From assembly GCF_003345255.1 (NCBI RefSeq), contig NZ_CP029331.1, forward strand, positions 1,922,001-1,986,000: 64,000 nt of DNA, read 5' to 3'. Each line of letters begins with the position of its first letter. The stretch's first letter is position 1. The translations under genes and the position numbers were made by a program. The notes under the pieces are model-generated. The model was not told where the DNA came from. It saw only the letters and a program-made list of their open reading frames with translations, and ran no database searches. Source of the stretch: Pseudothauera hydrothermalis. GTDB lineage: Bacteria > Pseudomonadota > Gammaproteobacteria > Burkholderiales > Rhodocyclaceae. Positions 57,345 through 63,763 of this stretch are shown here, one piece after another.

Positions 57345-58190
57345 TCAGGCCACCGCCTTTTGGCGACGGACAAGGCCCAAACCCAGCAAACCGATGCCGA
57401 TCAGCGCCACCGTGCCAGGTTCCGGCACCGATAGACGGAACTGACCGTTGTTGCTGACAAAGAACGAGCCGAGCGCTGGGTTGTTCACCCACGTACCGGG
57501 CAGTCCGGAGTACTGGAAAATCTCATTGGCGAAGGTCGTGTTCAACTGACCGTTCGGAATCTGGTTGGCGTTGACCGTTGCAAAGCCCATCAACAGCCCT
57601 TCCGGATCGCTGACCAGGTCAGCCATGTCCTGGGTCAGACCGGCGTCAAAAAAGAAGTAGCCGCTTTGCATCGACGTGGCCCGTGCGGTGAGCTCGATCT
57701 GACCGTTGGCGGTTGGCGTGCCATCCGGGTTGACCTGCAGGCCGCCACCGACGATCTCGAAAGTCGCAATCGGCATGCCGTCCACCCCGTAGGTGCCGAT
57801 CGTGCTGCCCCACTGACCGACCGGTGTGGAATACAGGTACAACGTGCCCGAGGTGAACGTGGCCGCACCGCCAAAAGTGCCGCTGCCACTGGCTTCGAAC
57901 AAGGCGGTGAGAATCGCAGTCTGGTTGGCCGCATAATCCAGGCCAAAGTCGTGGGTGGTGGAACGCACCGCGCCCCATTCCTCGAAGTCGAAATTCAGCC
58001 CGCCGGTGGGCGTCAGCGTCACGTAAGCGCCGCCGACAATATCCAGAAAGCTGGTGATATGGGTCGCGCTACCGGCGCCTGCACCGTCGGCATCGAGATA
58101 CCAATTGGTGAGGACGGCCGATTGCGCCGCGGAGCTCATCGCCAGGCCACTGGCGACGAGGGTCGAAGCAAGCAATGTACGAATGTTCAT
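57345..58190 (-). CDS. PEP-CTERM domain exported protein
   Basis: The 281-aa product has a signal peptide (cut likely near QSA-V), a Gly/Thr-rich beta-type body with no cysteine, and a C-terminal PEP-CTERM sorting tag: VPEPGTVALIGIGLLGLGLV followed by RRQ. Exosortase would cut this tag and attach or release the protein at the surface. The layout resembles flocculation-linked PEP-CTERM proteins such as PepA of Zoogloea, but I cannot confirm the subfamily. AGGAGAT precedes the ATG. A sigma54 promoter drives it. No exosortase gene is in the window. Confidence 0.92.
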   Translation of the reverse strand: MNIRTLLASTLVASGLAMSSAAQSAVLTNWYLDADGAGAGSATHITSFLDIVGGAYVTLTPTGGLNFDFEEWGAVRSTTHDFGLDYAANQTAILTALFEASGSGTFGGAATFTSGTLYLYSTPVGQWGSTIGTYGVDGMPIATFEIVGGGLQVNPDGTPTANGQIELTARATSMQSGYFFFDAGLTQDMADLVSDPEGLLMGFATVNANQIPNGQLNTTFANEIFQYSGLPGTWVNNPALGSFFVSNNGQFRLSVPEPGTVALIGIGLLGLGLVRRQKAVA

Positions 58191-58249: not shown

Positions 58250-58266
58250 AAGCAGAATGCGTGCCA
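58250..58266 (-). promoter_or_regulatory. sigma54 promoter of the PEP-CTERM gene
   Basis: On the reverse strand TGGCACG, four bases, then CTGCTT. GG and GC are exactly ten bases apart, and only one position of the core consensus TGGCACG-N4-TTGCW differs. The -12 is about 60 bases before the ATG. Upstream there are symmetric motifs (CACTG-ATT-CAGTG and AGTG-TT-CACT) that may bind an activator. Confidence 0.75.
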
Positions 58267-58370: not shown

Positions 58371-59459
58371 TCAATTCGAGATGCCCGCCCCCGGCGCCAC
58401 CATCAATTCTGCCAGCGGCCGACGCAATGACCGCGCATGCGGGGCCGTTCCACTGCCCACCCGGCAGAAAAACACGGCCCGCCCCTCAGCGCCCAGCACC
58501 GCATCGACCTGGGCGCCCACCCGCGCGACCGCCGCGTCGATCTGCGGCAGGCGCGAAACACTGCGCCGCTGGGCGGCGTACCAGCGGAAGATCAGTGGGG
58601 TCATTTCGGGTTGCAGGCGCAGGCCCACCGACTCGGCGGTAAGCCACACGCGCTGCATGGCCGCCCCGGCATCGACATAATCTTCCACTGTCTGCGCGGC
58701 AGTTTCCCGGCTGATCAGCACATGGGCGGCACAGCGGATGGCCGGCAGATAGTCGAGTTGAATGCGCGGCGCCACCGTGCCCAGAAGGTAACGGTTGAAA
58801 AAATCCACCCGCTCCCAGCTTTTCATCACCCAGCGCATCAGACGCGCAGTCAGTGGGTCGACACCGACCGCCTGCTCGGGAATGCGGTCGGTGCTAAAAC
58901 GCGCGCCCCATTCGATGACTGTTTTGTGCACTGGGTAGGCTTCCGGGCAGGTCAGGCGGATATGGGCGTTGGCCCACAACAGGCGGGCGATCTGCCGACG
59001 CTCGGGCAGCGACTCGAACAGGCGGACGCTGTAACCCGGACCCGGCGCCGCCTGTAGCGCGGCGCGCTGGGCGGCGGTCAGCGGGGTGCTCTGTAGCGGC
59101 CGGCGCTGCACACAGCGTGTTTCAATGAAGGGGATCAGCGGGTCGGCCGCCAGCGCCGGATCGTCGGCGAGTTGGACATCGAACACCGGCGCGCTGTCCG
59201 GCGTGCCCGCACGACGTGCCCACTGCGCACGTAAGCCGAATCCGCTTGCGGCAATACGCAGGGTTTCCAACAGCGCGCCGTGCGCCATGTGGCTGGCGTG
59301 GCCGTCGAAATCGTACAAACACCAGTCGCGGGTATCATGGCCGTGGACCGCAATGTGATGATCCGCGACGCTTTCAAAGCGCCAGGGCTGAGTGTTGTCG
59401 CCGCTGGGCGCCCAGCGGGCGAGATCCAGAATTTTGATCAGGGTGTCGCGATCAGCCAT
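58371..59459 (-). CDS. nitroreductase-like FMN protein beside ThiF
   Basis: The 362-aa product begins with a nitroreductase-type segment (LARWAPSGDNTQPWRFE) that in the family helps bind FMN. Further parts (HMAHGALLETLRIAASGFGL, DAGAAMQRVWLTAESVGLRLQP) match the two-lobed fold. It is longer than simple nitroreductases (about 200 aa). Its start overlaps the ThiF gene's end by 8 bases. The pair corresponds to the two halves of MoeY/Rv1355c-like ThiF-nitroreductase fusions, and to the E1 and dehydrogenase pair of azoline peptides. The reaction here is unknown. Confidence 0.8.
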   Translation of the reverse strand: MADRDTLIKILDLARWAPSGDNTQPWRFESVADHHIAVHGHDTRDWCLYDFDGHASHMAHGALLETLRIAASGFGLRAQWARRAGTPDSAPVFDVQLADDPALAADPLIPFIETRCVQRRPLQSTPLTAAQRAALQAAPGPGYSVRLFESLPERRQIARLLWANAHIRLTCPEAYPVHKTVIEWGARFSTDRIPEQAVGVDPLTARLMRWVMKSWERVDFFNRYLLGTVAPRIQLDYLPAIRCAAHVLISRETAAQTVEDYVDAGAAMQRVWLTAESVGLRLQPEMTPLIFRWYAAQRRSVSRLPQIDAAVARVGAQVDAVLGAEGRAVFFCRVGSGTAPHARSLRRPLAELMVAPGAGISN

Positions 59460-60339
59460 GTTGGCCTCCGGATGCGCGCATTTTCAAAAGTTGCCGACGC
59501 GCCACCCACAGGCCGAGGCGTTGCAGCGGATGGCGATTGCCGCCCGGACGCCATGTGCGCGTCAAGCGCTGCCGATAAGCGTCGAACTGGTAGCCGTGCG
59601 GCGCCGCCCGCAGCCTACCGCGCCCTAGCAGAATCTTCAGCGCCTCGGTGGCGGCAACCCCCGCGCATAGCTGACAGGCGGCCACTGTGGAGGGGCCGCG
59701 CTGTTCGGCAAGATTCACCCGCGACGGATCGACCAGATAGCCGCGTTGCAGCATCGCCGGCGATAGCCCGAGCAGGAAACGCAAGGCCATTTCGTCCTGG
59801 TCGCAGCCTTCCAGGCAAAAGTAGTCTTCAAACGACATGCCGCCCGGCATGAACACCAACACCGCGGTGCCCATGCCCAGCGGCGCCGCGGTGACCGCCG
59901 GCACGCCCAGCCGGTGGCAGGCGGCAAAAGTGTTGCGACGTGCGGCGAAGGCAAAAAAATCCAGGCCATCGACGTATAAATCGACACCGCGCAGAAAGTC
60001 GTCCAGATTGTCCTGGTGGACACCGTGCGCAAAGCGTCGGATGTCCAGTTCCGGATTGATGTCGGCGGCCATCTCAGCCAGCACGTCTACCTTGGGGCGC
60101 CCCAGTGTCGAGACCATCGCGCCTGCCTGGCGGTTGAAATTGACCAGATCGAAGGTGTCGAAGTCGGCAATGTTGAACGCCCCAATCCCCAGCCTGGCCA
60201 AAGTCAGCAAATGCACGCCCCCCACCCCGCCGATGCCGGCGATCGCCACCCGTTTGCCGCGCAGGGTCTGCTGTTCGGCCTCGGTCACCCAGCCGATGTT
60301 GCGGGAGAAGGCGGCCTCATAGTCGAAGCGCTGGATCAT
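59452..60339 (-). CDS. E1/ThiF-like adenylyltransferase
   Basis: The 295-aa product is an E1-like enzyme that may adenylate a carboxylate. Motifs: GIGGVGG (35-41), Asp59 and Asp61 in ADFDTFD, Arg70-Gln71 in FNRQ, Lys83 in GRPKV, and Asp124 in YVDGLD. Cysteines CLEGC and ACQLC could bind a metal; the usual two CxxC pairs of E1 enzymes are not both present. GGAGG precedes the ATG. It is the first gene of a two-gene operon with the nitroreductase. A TATGAT at 60376-60381 may be its -10 box. Confidence 0.85.
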   Translation of the reverse strand: MIQRFDYEAAFSRNIGWVTEAEQQTLRGKRVAIAGIGGVGGVHLLTLARLGIGAFNIADFDTFDLVNFNRQAGAMVSTLGRPKVDVLAEMAADINPELDIRRFAHGVHQDNLDDFLRGVDLYVDGLDFFAFAARRNTFAACHRLGVPAVTAAPLGMGTAVLVFMPGGMSFEDYFCLEGCDQDEMALRFLLGLSPAMLQRGYLVDPSRVNLAEQRGPSTVAACQLCAGVAATEALKILLGRGRLRAAPHGYQFDAYRQRLTRTWRPGGNRHPLQRLGLWVARRQLLKMRASGGQHG

Positions 60340-60375
60340 GGAATACCTCCTCGGTCATGGCCGGATCCTGCAGCT

Positions 60376-60381
60376 ATCATA
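60376..60381 (-). promoter_or_regulatory. possible -10 box of the ThiF-nitroreductase operon
   Basis: TATGAT on the reverse strand, 37 bases before the ThiF start; the -35 region (TTTCAA) is poor. The 156-base gap must also hold the promoter of the divergent permease operon. Confidence 0.35.
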
Positions 60382-60495
60382 GAGAAGCCCTTCCGCCGTT
60401 GAAACCATCCCGTTTGCTTCGGCCGCTTTTGCGCCCCTGCTCGCCGGGACGATGATGGCGGCCCGCTGCAACCGATCCGCCGACCGAGGTATGCA

Positions 60496-61725
60496 TTGGC
60501 TGCTGTCCTGTTCCAGACTTTCCGCCTGGCTGCCCGCAACCTGCTGCGCCAACGCCGCCGCGCTTTCTTGGCGCTGGCCACGGTGTGTGGCGGCGTGGTG
60601 GCCTACCTGCTCGCGGGCGGTTTCATCCATTGGATTTTTCAGGATATGCGCGAATCGACCATCCATTCGCAGCTCGGTCACCTGCAGATCACCCGGCCGG
60701 GTTATTTGCGCGAAGGCTTGGGCGACCCCTACCGCTATCTGCTGCCGGCCGACACCTCGGCACTCGAGGCCGACCTACATAGCCGTTTTCGCACCATCGC
60801 CCCCCGCCTGGCGTTCAGCGGCTTGATCAGTAAAGGGGATGACACGCTCTCTTTCGTGGGCGAAGGTATCGATCCGCAACGCGAAGCGCCGGTGACCCGC
60901 GCCATCACCATCGTCGCCGGACGCGACCTGACCGCAGCGCCCCCTGCATCGGTGCTGCTCGGCGAGGGTCTGGCGGCCAATCTGGGGGCACAGCCTGGCG
61001 ACCGGGTGGTGCTGCTCGCGAGCTCCGCGGACGGCGGCATCAACGCGGTGGAGTTGGAAGTCGCCGGATTGTTCGCCACTATCACCAAGGCTTACGACGA
61101 CACCGTGCTGCGCGCGCCAATCGACATCGCCCGCCAACTGATGCGGGTCGAAGGCGCCACCAGTTGGGTGGTGCTGCTCGATGACACCGAAGCCACCGCA
61201 CGCACCGTAGCTGAGCTGACCCAGCGCCTGCCCGCAGACCGCTTCGAGATCATCCCCTGGTATGAGCTGGCCGACTTTTACAACAAGACGGTCACGTTGT
61301 TCTCCCGTCAGGTCGGCGTGGTGCGCATCTTGATCGCACTGATCGTGGTGCTGTCGATCTCCAACACCTTGTCGATGGCGGTCATCGAACGTACCGGCGA
61401 AATCGGCACCGCGATGGCGCTGGGCGTGCGCCGGCGCGGCATTCTCACCCTATTTTTGGCCGAAGGCGCGCTGCTTGGGCTGGTCGGCGGCGTAATCGGT
61501 GTGCTGGCCGGACATGCGCTGGGCGCGCTGGTGTCGGCCATCGGCATCCCGATGCCGCCGCCGCCCGGCATGGCACGCGGCTACATTGGCCAGATCGCCA
61601 TCTCGCCCGCGCTGGCGCTGGATGCCTTCCTGCTTGCCTTCCTCACCACGCTGGTGGCGAGCATCTTCCCGGCCTGGAAGGCCTCGCGCATGAACATCGT
61701 CGACGCCTTGCGCCAACAAAGGTAG
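60496..61725 (+). CDS. FtsX-type ABC transporter permease (first)
   Basis: The 409-aa inner-membrane protein has the MacB/LolC layout: one N-terminal span (about 22-45) after LAARNLLRQRRRAF, a long periplasmic domain, then three C-terminal spans from about 275. The start is TTG at 60496, with GAGGT five to seven bases before it; the ATG at 60491 is in another frame. Its partner follows after 5 bases. No ATPase gene is adjacent, so one must be borrowed. Confidence 0.87.
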   Translation: MAAVLFQTFRLAARNLLRQRRRAFLALATVCGGVVAYLLAGGFIHWIFQDMRESTIHSQLGHLQITRPGYLREGLGDPYRYLLPADTSALEADLHSRFRTIAPRLAFSGLISKGDDTLSFVGEGIDPQREAPVTRAITIVAGRDLTAAPPASVLLGEGLAANLGAQPGDRVVLLASSADGGINAVELEVAGLFATITKAYDDTVLRAPIDIARQLMRVEGATSWVVLLDDTEATARTVAELTQRLPADRFEIIPWYELADFYNKTVTLFSRQVGVVRILIALIVVLSISNTLSMAVIERTGEIGTAMALGVRRRGILTLFLAEGALLGLVGGVIGVLAGHALGALVSAIGIPMPPPPGMARGYIGQIAISPALALDAFLLAFLTTLVASIFPAWKASRMNIVDALRQQR

Positions 61726-61730
61726 CTGCC

Positions 61731-62945
61731 ATGCTCTTCAAGCTTGCCCTACGCAACATCTTCCGTCAGAGGCTGCGCACCGCGATGACGCTGGGTGCCA
61801 TCGTGTTCGGGGTGAGCGGGCTGATTCTTTCCGGCGGCTTCGTGCAAGACATTTTCCACCAACTCGGCGAAGCCATCATTCATTCGCAAACCGGCCATGT
61901 GCAGGTTTTCCGCACAGACTACCTGGAACGCGGCAGCCGCCGGCCGGACCAATTTCTGATCGACGACCCCGATGGGCTGGCCGGCCGCATCACCGCCCTG
62001 CCCGAAGTGGCCGAGGTGGCCGCCCGGCTCAACTTTGCCGGGCTGCTCAACAACGGCCGGCGCGACCTGGCGATCATCGGCGAAGGCATCGAGCCGGACA
62101 AGGAAGCCCGTCTGGGCACCTATCTGCAGATCACCGCCGGGCGCCAGCTCACCGACCGCGACCGCTTCGGCATCCTGCTCGGCCAGGGCGTGGCCCATTC
62201 GCTCAGTGTCAAACCGGGCGATCCGCTCACACTGGTCATGAACACCGCCGACGGCGCGCTCAACACCCTGGATTTCGAGGTGGTGGGCATCTTCCAGAGC
62301 TTCTCCAAGGACTTCGACGCGCGCGCGGTGCGCATCCCGCTGGCCGCCGCGCAGGAGCTCATGTACACCCCCGGCGCCAACGTGCTGGTGGCCACCTTGC
62401 ACCGCACCGAAGACACCGACACGGCGCTGGCCTCGATCCAAGCCCTGCTCGATTCGACGCAACTTCAGGCGCGCAGCTGGCGTCAGTTGTCGGACTTTTA
62501 TGACAAAACCCTGCAACTCTACGATCGACAGTTCGGGGTGTTGCAACTGATCATCCTGTTCATGGTGCTGCTGTCGGTGGCCAACAGCGTCAATATGAGC
62601 GCCTTCGAGCGCCTGCCGGAATTCGGCACCATGCAGGCGCTGGGCAACCGTAAGCGCGACGTATTCGGCCTCATCCTCGCCGAGAACCTGCTGCTGGGTC
62701 TGATCGGCAGCGCGCTCGGTGTCGTGACCGGTATCACGCTTGCGCTCGGAATTTCGGCCATTGGCATTCCCATGCCCCCGCCACCGAACGCGAACGTCGG
62801 CTACACTGCCTTCATACGCATCGTCCCGCTCACGGTGCTGACCGCCTTTCTCATCGGCTTTGCGGCCACGGTCTTGGCTGCGTTGTTTCCGGCGCGCCGG
62901 GTGTCGTCAACCCCGGTGGTCGACGCTCTGAGACAGGGCACTTGA
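61731..62945 (+). CDS. FtsX-type ABC transporter permease (second)
   Basis: The 404-aa product is a paralogue of the gene before it: LALRNIFRQRLRTAM at the start, GEAIIHSQTGHVQVFR, GEGIEPDKEARLG, and GIPMPPPPNANVGY near the end align with the first permease. Two such subunits would make a heterodimer, as LolC/LolE do in lipoprotein export. The stop overlaps the region before the acyltransferase by a few bases, so the three genes are one operon. Confidence 0.9.
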   Translation: MLFKLALRNIFRQRLRTAMTLGAIVFGVSGLILSGGFVQDIFHQLGEAIIHSQTGHVQVFRTDYLERGSRRPDQFLIDDPDGLAGRITALPEVAEVAARLNFAGLLNNGRRDLAIIGEGIEPDKEARLGTYLQITAGRQLTDRDRFGILLGQGVAHSLSVKPGDPLTLVMNTADGALNTLDFEVVGIFQSFSKDFDARAVRIPLAAAQELMYTPGANVLVATLHRTEDTDTALASIQALLDSTQLQARSWRQLSDFYDKTLQLYDRQFGVLQLIILFMVLLSVANSVNMSAFERLPEFGTMQALGNRKRDVFGLILAENLLLGLIGSALGVVTGITLALGISAIGIPMPPPPNANVGYTAFIRIVPLTVLTAFLIGFAATVLAALFPARRVSSTPVVDALRQGT

Positions 62946-62965
62946 GCGGCTTACGGAGCCCCGCC

Positions 62966-63763
62966 ATGCTGCTCTTCGAACGGTTCAACCTCGGACACGG
63001 TTTCCGCAAATACTTTCGCATCGCGCCAGCGATCGACGAATCCTTGCGCGACCGTGTCTATCGCATCCGCCACGAGGTGTATTGCGAAGAGCTGAAATTC
63101 GAACCCGAACGCCCGGATCGCCGCGAAACCGACGAATACGACGCCCACAGCCTGCATTGCCTGCTGACCACCAATTCGGAGCCCGAGCAACTCGTCGGTT
63201 GCACCCGGGTCATCCTGACCCGTTCAGACCAGCCGGATTATCCGCTGCCCTTCGAGCGCACCTGTGCGGCAAGCATCGACCGGCGCATCGTCGATCCGGC
63301 CCGCCTGCCCCGCGACCGCATTGCCGAAGTGTCGCGCCTGGCGGTGCGCGCCTGCTATCGCCGGCGGCGGGCGGATGGGCGGGAGGCCATGTCCCTTCAC
63401 GACGAGGACTTCGGTCTGCCCGAACGCCCGCGCTTTCCCTACATTCCCATCGGCCTTTATCTGGGCGCGGTGGCACTGGCCGCGCGCAGCGGCATCGATA
63501 CCCTGTTCGTGCTCACCGAGCCGCGCCTGGCCGCACATTTTGCCAAGCTGGGCGTGGAAATCCGTCAGATTGGCGGTGGCGTGGAACACCGCGGCTTGCG
63601 GGTGCCATCGATGATGGATGTACACGGCATCATCAAAAATATGCGCATGATCTTGCGACCGATCTGGCGCGTCATCCGCGACGAAATCGAAATCGGCTAT
63701 GAACGCAACGCGGGCGGCTCACGCCTCACCGACCGGCCGCCCGCTCCCCCCGGGCTGCGCTGA
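62966..63763 (+). CDS. PEP-CTERM/exosortase-associated acyltransferase (N-acyl amino acid synthase-like)
   Basis: The 265-aa product has a GNAT-like fold of the family linked to exosortase loci: FRIAPAIDESLRDRVYRIRHEVYCEELKFEP at the front resembles acyl-homoserine-lactone synthases, followed by LPRDRIAEVSRLAVR and FPYIPIGLYLGAVALA. Members from environmental DNA make long-chain N-acyl amino acids. The ATG at 62966 has GGAG before it; a TTG at 62942 is in frame. It is the third gene after the permeases. The substrate amino acid is unknown. I quote the motif in parts: the first 20 residues end at YRIR. Confidence 0.87.
   Translation: MLLFERFNLGHGFRKYFRIAPAIDESLRDRVYRIRHEVYCEELKFEPERPDRRETDEYDAHSLHCLLTTNSEPEQLVGCTRVILTRSDQPDYPLPFERTCAASIDRRIVDPARLPRDRIAEVSRLAVRACYRRRRADGREAMSLHDEDFGLPERPRFPYIPIGLYLGAVALAARSGIDTLFVLTEPRLAAHFAKLGVEIRQIGGGVEHRGLRVPSMMDVHGIIKNMRMILRPIWRVIRDEIEIGYERNAGGSRLTDRPPAPPGLR

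Follow-up and report, generated by a model that had tools for sequence, protein, structure and literature searches.

Acyl-oxazolones (azlactones) are made by a few described enzyme sets, which are the closest known systems to the locus analysed here. In the available part of PMC10404671, TyzA N-acylates tyrosine or phenylalanine, TyzC, from a nitroreductase-superfamily subgroup that includes Betaproteobacteria, desaturates the product, and TyzB, a ThiF protein, cyclises it to an acyl-oxazolone; like chemistry is described there for OxzAB of P. rubra, with a ThiF-nitroreductase fusion. TrzA and TrzS, the latter being the Rv1355c protein, carry out the same chemistry according to the accessible text of a 2025 study of tryptazolones, where the physiological role of oxazolones is described as a major question still without an answer (PMC12856293). 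Producers of N-acyl dehydrotyrosine, among them the betaproteobacterium Massilia kyonggiensis, carry N-acyl amino acid synthase, ThiF and nitroreductase genes, and one Massilia making only saturated products has candidate clusters without these genes (PMC12479983, in the portion available). Here we examine a 64,000-nucleotide stretch (the window) of the single-contig 3.06-Mb genome of Pseudothauera hydrothermalis (NZ_CP029331.1, positions 1,922,001 to 1,986,000), in which five genes form two divergent groups. We consider it probable that this locus serves the biosynthesis and export of an N-acyl oxazolone of the OxzAB/TyzACB/TrzAS kind in a bacterium with the exosortase XrtA; the product, its substrate and its export are what we infer from the following features.

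58371..59459, minus strand: nitroreductase (PF00881, 43 bits, cut-off 23.5)
59452..60339, minus strand: ThiF/E1-type adenylating cyclase of the PRK08223 family (PF00899, 151 bits; NF006077 (PRK08223), 491 bits, cut-off 266)
60340..60495, no strand: divergent intergenic region of 156 bases between the two gene groups, taken from the sequence
60496..61725, plus strand: LolC/E-like FtsX permease A (PF12704 (MacB_PCD) and PF02687 (FtsX), over Pfam cut-offs)
61731..62945, plus strand: LolC/E-like FtsX permease B (MacB_PCD and FtsX, over Pfam cut-offs)
62942..63763, plus strand: exosortase-associated acyltransferase, a predicted N-acyl amino acid synthase (TIGR03694, 256.1 bits, cut-off 111.95)

An initial annotation made from the letters alone had described these five open reading frames, an 8-base overlap of the ThiF and nitroreductase genes (59452-59459) and the 156-base gap, all of which hold at the positions listed here. 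Pfam and NCBIfam agree with its families (ThiF, nitroreductase, two FtsX permeases and an exosortase-associated acyltransferase), and the permeases that it called paralogous are 41% identical. It did not mention the adjoining gene pepA, nor that no close ATPase matching the set stands beside the permeases. The acyltransferase could also start at the in-frame ATG at 62966. The plus-strand unit probably ends with this gene because the longest open reading frames in the 6 kb beyond lie on the opposite strand; their translations, by reading alone, resemble Mnh-type antiporter subunits.

The enzyme steps of the proposed pathway are likely, by analogy with the published systems. The TIGR03694 acyltransferase would N-acylate an amino acid from a fatty acyl thioester, as its family and fold suggest, and by the same analogy this amino acid is probably aromatic. 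As in the published homologues, the ThiF protein would adenylate the carboxylate with ATP so that the amide oxygen could close the oxazolone ring, and the nitroreductase-type oxidase, using flavin mononucleotide, would remove hydrogens with O2 to yield a 2,3-dehydro product; these two steps might run in either order. Gene linkage further suggests that the permeases may pair with an ATPase, a LolA-like carrier and an outer-membrane barrel encoded at 2.30 Mb and would carry the lipid out of the inner membrane, either into the outer membrane or to the outside. Its use would lie with the PEP-CTERM/exosortase polysaccharide surface. The initial annotation had already proposed that the ThiF/nitroreductase pair activates and oxidises an N-acyl amino acid. 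This core idea is right in outline and matches printed chemistry: relatives are reported to activate and oxidise an N-acyl amino acid (PMC10404671 and PMC12856293) or are proposed to do so (PMC12479983; each paper in its available part), but the ring closure had been missed and is added here; the dehydro-amino acid it had named is a related product, the published one being the cyclic oxazolone.

The evidence on the individual enzymes is consistent with these steps. The acyltransferase also matches FeeM (PF21926, 34.7 bits), and its AlphaFold model (mean predicted local distance difference test score, pLDDT, 86.5) retrieves in Foldseek the acyl-homoserine lactone (AHL) synthases at the top (BjaI at E 2.4e-9, RpaI, LasI), then TofI/MesI, with FeeM at rank 11 (E 7e-7). 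AHL synthases and the FeeM type are also the kinds reported as closest to TyzA (PMC10404671, accessible text). On this model the protein is predicted to be an N-acyl amino acid synthase of the GNAT/AHL-synthase fold. We rejected a single clade of ThiF-linked acyltransferases, since a 59-sequence tree shows eight changes of the label; its clustering still exceeds that in all 500 shuffles (mean 13.3 changes), an effect that near-copies alone could produce. In the ThiF protein, the residues R13, D61, R70, Q71, K83 and D127, predicted to be catalytic from work on ThiF/MoeB, are invariant among 22 aligned sequences, and D127 aligns with Asp127 of the solved ThiF 1zud. Judged from these positions, the adenylation residues appear intact, as expected of the cyclase in an oxazolone locus. 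Among proteins of solved structure its sequence is closest to ThiF, the tRNA enzyme TcdA and MoeB, and the closest named match among the best 80 of 398, a list that may omit records of the window's own genome, is in a Thauera metagenome-assembled genome (MAG; 89% identity, L113). The nitroreductase aligns over its full length with the Acg-type model (122 bits, below the cut-off of 199) and with the Rv1355c (TrzS) model (113 bits, below the cut-off of 476). It thus belongs to the nitroreductase superfamily and is a candidate member of FDO-A, the subgroup of flavin-dependent oxidases expected at an oxazolone locus. Aligned with the oxidase parts of relatives, it shows 18 invariant columns in 15 sequences; as three rows (L115, L144 and L213) share only 20-21% identity, we do not claim orthology for all of them.

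We then compared gene neighbourhoods in two sets of loci. The order-wide set comprises 399 genomes of the same order as the window genome, 66 with the ThiF family and 43 with TIGR03694; we examined every one of the 66 ThiF loci and 14 loci at which TIGR03694 lies apart from ThiF. The named set holds the best 80 of 398 confirmed ThiF loci; it is biased towards near relatives, and its genomes partly overlap the 66. ThiF and nitroreductase profiles were built by domain, with fused proteins split, and nitroreductases scoring at least 400 bits against the profile are called close, those below 400 bits distant. Neighbours were counted within 10.5 kb of ThiF; because contig ends truncate many loci (at least 8 kb is present on the low-coordinate side in 53/66 and 61/80 loci), the counts, given below for the order-wide and the named set in turn, are lower bounds and absences upper bounds.

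ThiF and nitroreductase are repeatedly found with the permease pair and an N-acyl amino acid synthase, so the initial annotation withstood the co-occurrence check that it had named as a possible refutation. A nitroreductase lies near ThiF in 51/66 and 70/80 loci (a close one in 39/66 and 59/80), a permease in 25/66 and 35/80, and a synthase of either type in 54/66 and 48/80. The exosortase-associated acyltransferase, the only synthase that the annotation had foreseen, accounts for 9/66 and 31/80, and the FeeM type, identified by PF21926 (149 and 170 bits in two scanned members of the neighbour family), for 48/66 and 20/80. Nitroreductase, TIGR03694 and permease are all present at 5/66 and 15/80 loci. 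The gene order of the window, with the acyltransferase and two permeases divergent from ThiF and nitroreductase, is found among recognised genes at nine of the 80 named loci (L113, L115, L116, L118, L119, L120, L121, L124 and L135), eight with a close nitroreductase (451-500 bits), and among the 66 in the window's own genome only; its conservation in relatives indicates that the arrangement did not arise by chance. Permease and ThiF are divergent neighbours in 10/66 and 26/80 loci. Upstream of ThiF and on its strand, a FeeM-type synthase is found at a distance of at most 700 bases in 35/66 and 14/80, and TIGR03694 at a distance of at most about 530 bases in 0/66 and 5/80; TIGR03694 is the next recognised gene, divergently oriented, in 2/66 and 10/80. 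ThiF and nitroreductase share one open frame in 12/66 and 13/80 loci. Synthase, cyclase and oxidase, the combination expected of an oxazolone locus, are encoded together in the window, in its relatives and in a Nitratidesulfovibrio fusion (L213) described below.

Some loci depart from this composition. Seven (L039, L058, L093, L094, L101, L110 and L111) hold ThiF, a FeeM-type synthase and a PEP-CTERM gene with no nitroreductase found within reach, several of them also with a methyltransferase; their product is perhaps cyclised or methylated, not desaturated. Others, from Janthinobacterium, Rugamonas and Duganella (L127, L136, L139-L142, L147, L148 and L184), carry ThiF-nitroreductase pairs with no synthase recognised nearby and, by reading alone, a glycosyltransferase-like gene on the opposite strand (family f10). 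These may make a sugar-bearing product, or the profiles may have missed a synthase.

Set against the described systems, the window shares with OxzA/OxzB, reportedly characterised by de Rond et al. 2021 as an oxazolone synthetase of P. rubra, the N-acyl amino acid acyltransferase, ThiF and nitroreductase activities, and in three relatives (L166, L167 and L188) ThiF and nitroreductase likewise form one frame with the acyltransferase just upstream. Unlike OxzA/OxzB, the window has separate ThiF and nitroreductase genes, divergent from the permeases and acyltransferase, and links to a transporter and an exosortase. TyzACB and TrzAS combine the same three activities (PMC10404671 and PMC12856293, available parts), and the tyz locus also has separate cyclase and oxidase genes, a divergent acyltransferase gene and a nearby transporter gene, mmpL9; that transporter is, however, of the MMPL type, the sequences are distant (Rv1355c model, 113 and 70 bits), and the portion of PMC10404671 available contains neither "exosortase" nor "PEP-CTERM". 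In the clusters for kyonggic acid, thalassotalic acid and stieleriacine the synthase, ThiF and nitroreductase genes are likewise grouped, overlapping or separated by very short gaps in Thalassotalea and Massilia kyonggiensis, and the accessible text on them mentions neither "exosortase" nor "transporter" (PMC12479983).

What sets the locus apart is its tie to XrtA. Across the 399 genomes, XrtA exceeds its cut-off in 98, among them 62 of the 66 ThiF genomes (16.2 expected; Fisher p ~1e-41, an overstated value, as are the other co-occurrence p-values, because related genomes are not independent). It is also present in 40 of the 41 permease genomes, found by scoring four candidates per genome, and in 36 of the 43 TIGR03694 genomes. 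The window's own genome encodes XrtA over cut-off (G000:C1:2288612-2289379), a chain-length protein (599 bits), five polysaccharide-locus genes recognised by profiles and PepA in the window, which together place it among the bacteria with this system. Near ThiF we further counted XrtA polysaccharide genes (16/66, 25/80), PrsT (26/66, 22/80) and a PepA homologue (13/66, 9/80). As 36 of the 98 XrtA genomes are without this ThiF and its presence within XrtA genomes is not correlated with the permeases or with TIGR03694, we regard it as an accessory of XrtA bacteria and not as an essential sorting part. N-acyl amino acid synthases themselves were reportedly tied to PEP-CTERM/exosortase, to judge by its title, by Craig et al. 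2011, which is said to end at the N-acyl amino acid, with cyclase, oxidase and exporter outside it.

The permeases appear to belong to a larger, Lol-like set. ABC ATPase, LolA-like protein (PF17131), DUF1302-type barrel and the permease pair are recurring ThiF neighbours; the barrel is found near 28/66 and 22/80 loci and the LolA-like gene near 22/66 and 16/80, and loci with the latter also have permeases in 16/16 and 20/22 cases of the two locus sets. In all 27 genomes with ThiF and permeases the two lie within 20 kb of each other (26 within 12 kb, 13 within 3 kb), and in 37 of the 41 permease genomes the permeases are within 20 kb of ThiF or TIGR03694. In P. hydrothermalis the remaining parts lie about 0.3 Mb from the window permeases:

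G000:C1:2299750-2303500 (L197:8751-12495), adjoining XrtA polysaccharide genes: FeeM-type synthase, barrel, LolD/DevA-like ATPase and LolA-like protein

Here the barrel, ATPase and LolA-like gene occupy about 2.300-2.304 Mb. The synthase scores 161-162 bits, the carrier 161 bits against PF17131 (cut-off 30), and the ATPase 224 bits against DevA and 220 against LolD (LolD cut-off 308), below cut-off for both; a profile search found no permease in the 19.9-kb stretch at 2.30 Mb. The only ATPase match that the profile gave near the window permeases, about 15 kb downstream of the acyltransferase, is weak (126 bits, versus 428 at 2.30 Mb). A third, weak synthase-like match lies at G000:C1:2575788-2576186 (TIGR03694 32 bits, FeeM 25 bits, both below cut-off). 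In some relatives all the parts stand together: in a Rhodocyclales MAG (L121), LolA, ATPase, barrel, acyltransferase, permeases, ThiF, nitroreductase and PepA all stand in one stretch of less than 20 kb, which also holds two FeeM matches and XrtA-locus genes. Its barrel is modelled as a beta-barrel (mean pLDDT 70) with general porins and AlgE as best folds, and the fold search gave no lipid-specific hint. Like LolABCDE, the set would comprise two LolC/E-like permeases, a LolD/DevA-like ATPase and a LolA-like carrier. The best PDB sequence matches of permease B are LolE, LolF and LolC; since the permeases score only 103 (A) and 99 bits against the LolCE model (cut-off 362), we term them Lol-like only, and the set differs from LolABCDE further in that the ATPase falls below the LolD cut-off and a modelled outer-membrane beta-barrel joins the set. 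Going by sequence and gene linkage, it is plausible that the window permeases are half of a candidate lipid exporter split across the genome. The initial annotation had the pair alone as the exporter, whereas it appears to be only part of a larger transporter, by which export is plausible.

Two records from other phyla show comparable linkages:

L213:11068-13992 (NZ_CP116248.1, Nitratidesulfovibrio vulgaris plasmid): FeeM-ThiF-nitroreductase fusion of 974 amino acids (PRK14852, 2330 bits)
L214:5251-9852 (AP029178.1, Bdellovibrio plasmid pBdHAGR2): LolA-like protein, ABC ATPase, FtsX permease, 388-amino-acid protein and ThiF, contiguous on one strand

The fusion, composed of FeeM (43-198), ThiF (316-565) and nitroreductase (from 609), is encoded between XrtA polysaccharide genes and PEP-CTERM genes. 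Two further Nitratidesulfovibrio plasmid matches were found, and in 393 Pseudomonadota genomes no protein exceeds the PRK14852 cut-off; the NCBIfam name of the family is "hypothetical protein". The Bdellovibrio permease shares 31% identity with window permease B (181 bits), and the 388-amino-acid protein matches neither Pfam nor the profile of the barrel family. Transposase genes flank the row on one side, and glycosyltransferase genes lie across the record start. No synthase, nitroreductase or XrtA gene is annotated by name in the two Bdellovibrio stretches; most genes there carry the label hypothetical, and the scan covered seven of them.

Several observations weigh against the proposed oxazolone pathway and export. 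Within XrtA genomes, ThiF is not enriched together with the permeases (27 versus 25.3 expected, p=0.31) or with TIGR03694 (19 versus 22.8 expected, p=0.97), and it is TIGR03694 that correlates with the permeases (p=0.007). A nitroreductase was not found within 10.5 kb of ThiF at 15/66 and 10/80 loci and was only distant at a further 12/66 and 11/80, and no synthase was found at 12/66 and 32/80. Even among the loci with the window order, L115 has a distant nitroreductase (163 bits), and that of the window reaches no specific curated cut-off. Lol-like transporters, moreover, classically move lipoproteins. Finally, no oxazolones were observed in the producers studied, as far as the available part of PMC12479983 goes.

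Alternatively, the biosynthesis could proceed as proposed while the Lol-like set moves a lipoprotein or surface component of the PEP-CTERM system (for example PrsT-type lipoproteins), lipid genes and transporter merely sharing an exosortase island. We consider this unlikely, though it deserves serious weight: the resemblance to LolC/LolE and to DevA/LolD, if below all cut-offs, fits it, as do the near-universal XrtA in permease genomes, the lack of a ThiF-permease correlation beyond XrtA, and the permease matches, one only fragmentary, at six of the 14 loci where TIGR03694 lies apart from ThiF. However, the permeases adjoin ThiF instead of lying anywhere in the XrtA locus (no more than 3 kb away in 13 genomes), transporter and ThiF genes stand side by side in the Bdellovibrio row, whose two stretches of mostly hypothetical genes have no XrtA annotation, and an MMPL-type transporter occurs near ThiF at 7/66 and 4/80 loci, every one without permeases. 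A different doubt concerns the substrate, as ThiF and nitroreductase might receive most of their substrate from the FeeM-type synthase at 2.30 Mb, and TIGR03694 might make a different, open-chain N-acyl amino acid. Besides that second gene in the same genome, the order-wide preponderance of FeeM beside ThiF (48 versus 9 of 66) and the 34 of 43 TIGR03694 genomes in which TIGR03694 does not share a contig with ThiF at a distance of 20 kb or less speak for this; the named set, with its near-relative bias, shows the reverse (31 versus 20 of 80), and TIGR03694 takes part in the window order at nine of its loci and lies upstream of ThiF on its strand, at most about 530 bases away, at five, so that we hold this reading, too, to be unlikely.

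Mere hitch-hiking of linked island genes that share no pathway could draw on the strong island effect, with XrtA in 62 of 66 ThiF genomes that are related and not independent, yet we think it very improbable in view of the published pathway built from the same trio, the two and even three parts joined in one open frame, and the linkage in other phyla. ThiF-like and nitroreductase-like enzymes are also known from ribosomal peptides of the azoline/azole type, but we set aside a peptide-modifying role as extremely improbable because no part of a peptide pathway is present among the scanned genes: no YcaO match occurs among the six window proteins scanned or the scanned members of neighbour families, a scope that leaves some families unscanned and includes no search for short precursor peptides, and the solved proteins closest to ThiF in sequence are those named above.

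One further gene and its promoter adjoin the minus-strand group:

57345..58190, minus strand: PepA, flocculation-associated PEP-CTERM surface protein (NF033554, 93.7 bits, cut-off 80; PEP-CTERM motif PF07589)
58251..58266, minus strand: sigma-54 (RpoN) -24/-12 type site of pepA (exact match to TGGCACNNNNNYTGCW)

We regard pepA as a neighbour and perhaps a partner of the lipid, not as a pathway enzyme. In Aquincola, an RpoN promoter with the same hexamers was mapped for pepA, which has a role in floc formation (PMC9850573, available part). The site is the only exact match in the window, where a loose RpoN pattern is not enriched (72 matches versus 82.9 expected). An RpoN score of at least 10/12 is reached by all 23 pepA upstream regions, against 6.4% of 2,920 random stretches, and by 95% of 20 members of another PEP-CTERM family; values near background were obtained for ThiF (3%), nitroreductase (8%), permease (9%) and TIGR03694 (8%), and FeeM lies above it (20%). 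A score of 11/12 is attained by 52% of the 23 PepA regions and by none of the 143 ThiF or the 107 + 5 permease regions. We thus found no sign that RpoN controls the lipid genes together with pepA, no site above background standing upstream of ThiF or permease, and because these scores are near background there is no evidence that the lipid genes share the pepA switch.

Of the claim that this full set was undescribed, the part concerning the enzyme trio does not stand, since the trio is already in print. Our literature search found no link between oxazolones and exosortases (one co-occurrence, in unrelated places), although de Rond et al. 2021 and Craig et al. 2011 could mention part of it, and no paper joining exosortase, nitroreductase and adenylyltransferase. 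As far as these searches reach, three observations are new: the near-confinement of the ThiF family to genomes with XrtA, the association of the permeases with Lol-like export parts that are split across the genome of P. hydrothermalis, and the linkages in Nitratidesulfovibrio and Bdellovibrio. The enzyme core is well explained by known pathways, and the new part is this near-confinement together with the split exporter. The initial annotation had spoken of a lipid-signal system; for a signalling role of the lipid there is no evidence. A bolder and quite unlikely idea is that the acyl-oxazolone functions within the exosortase surface system, exported by a dedicated Lol-like route as a reactive azlactone that would acylate or anchor PEP-CTERM proteins or the XrtA polysaccharide; on that idea an N-acyl amino acid lipid would be a chemical partner of the sorting system or a lipid of the floc coat. 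The XrtA tie and the conservation of the candidate exporter direct attention to the surface of bacteria that form polysaccharide and flocs. The locus also suggests a further testable role for TIGR03694 acyltransferases and a possible substrate for a Lol-like set that has an outer-membrane barrel of its own.

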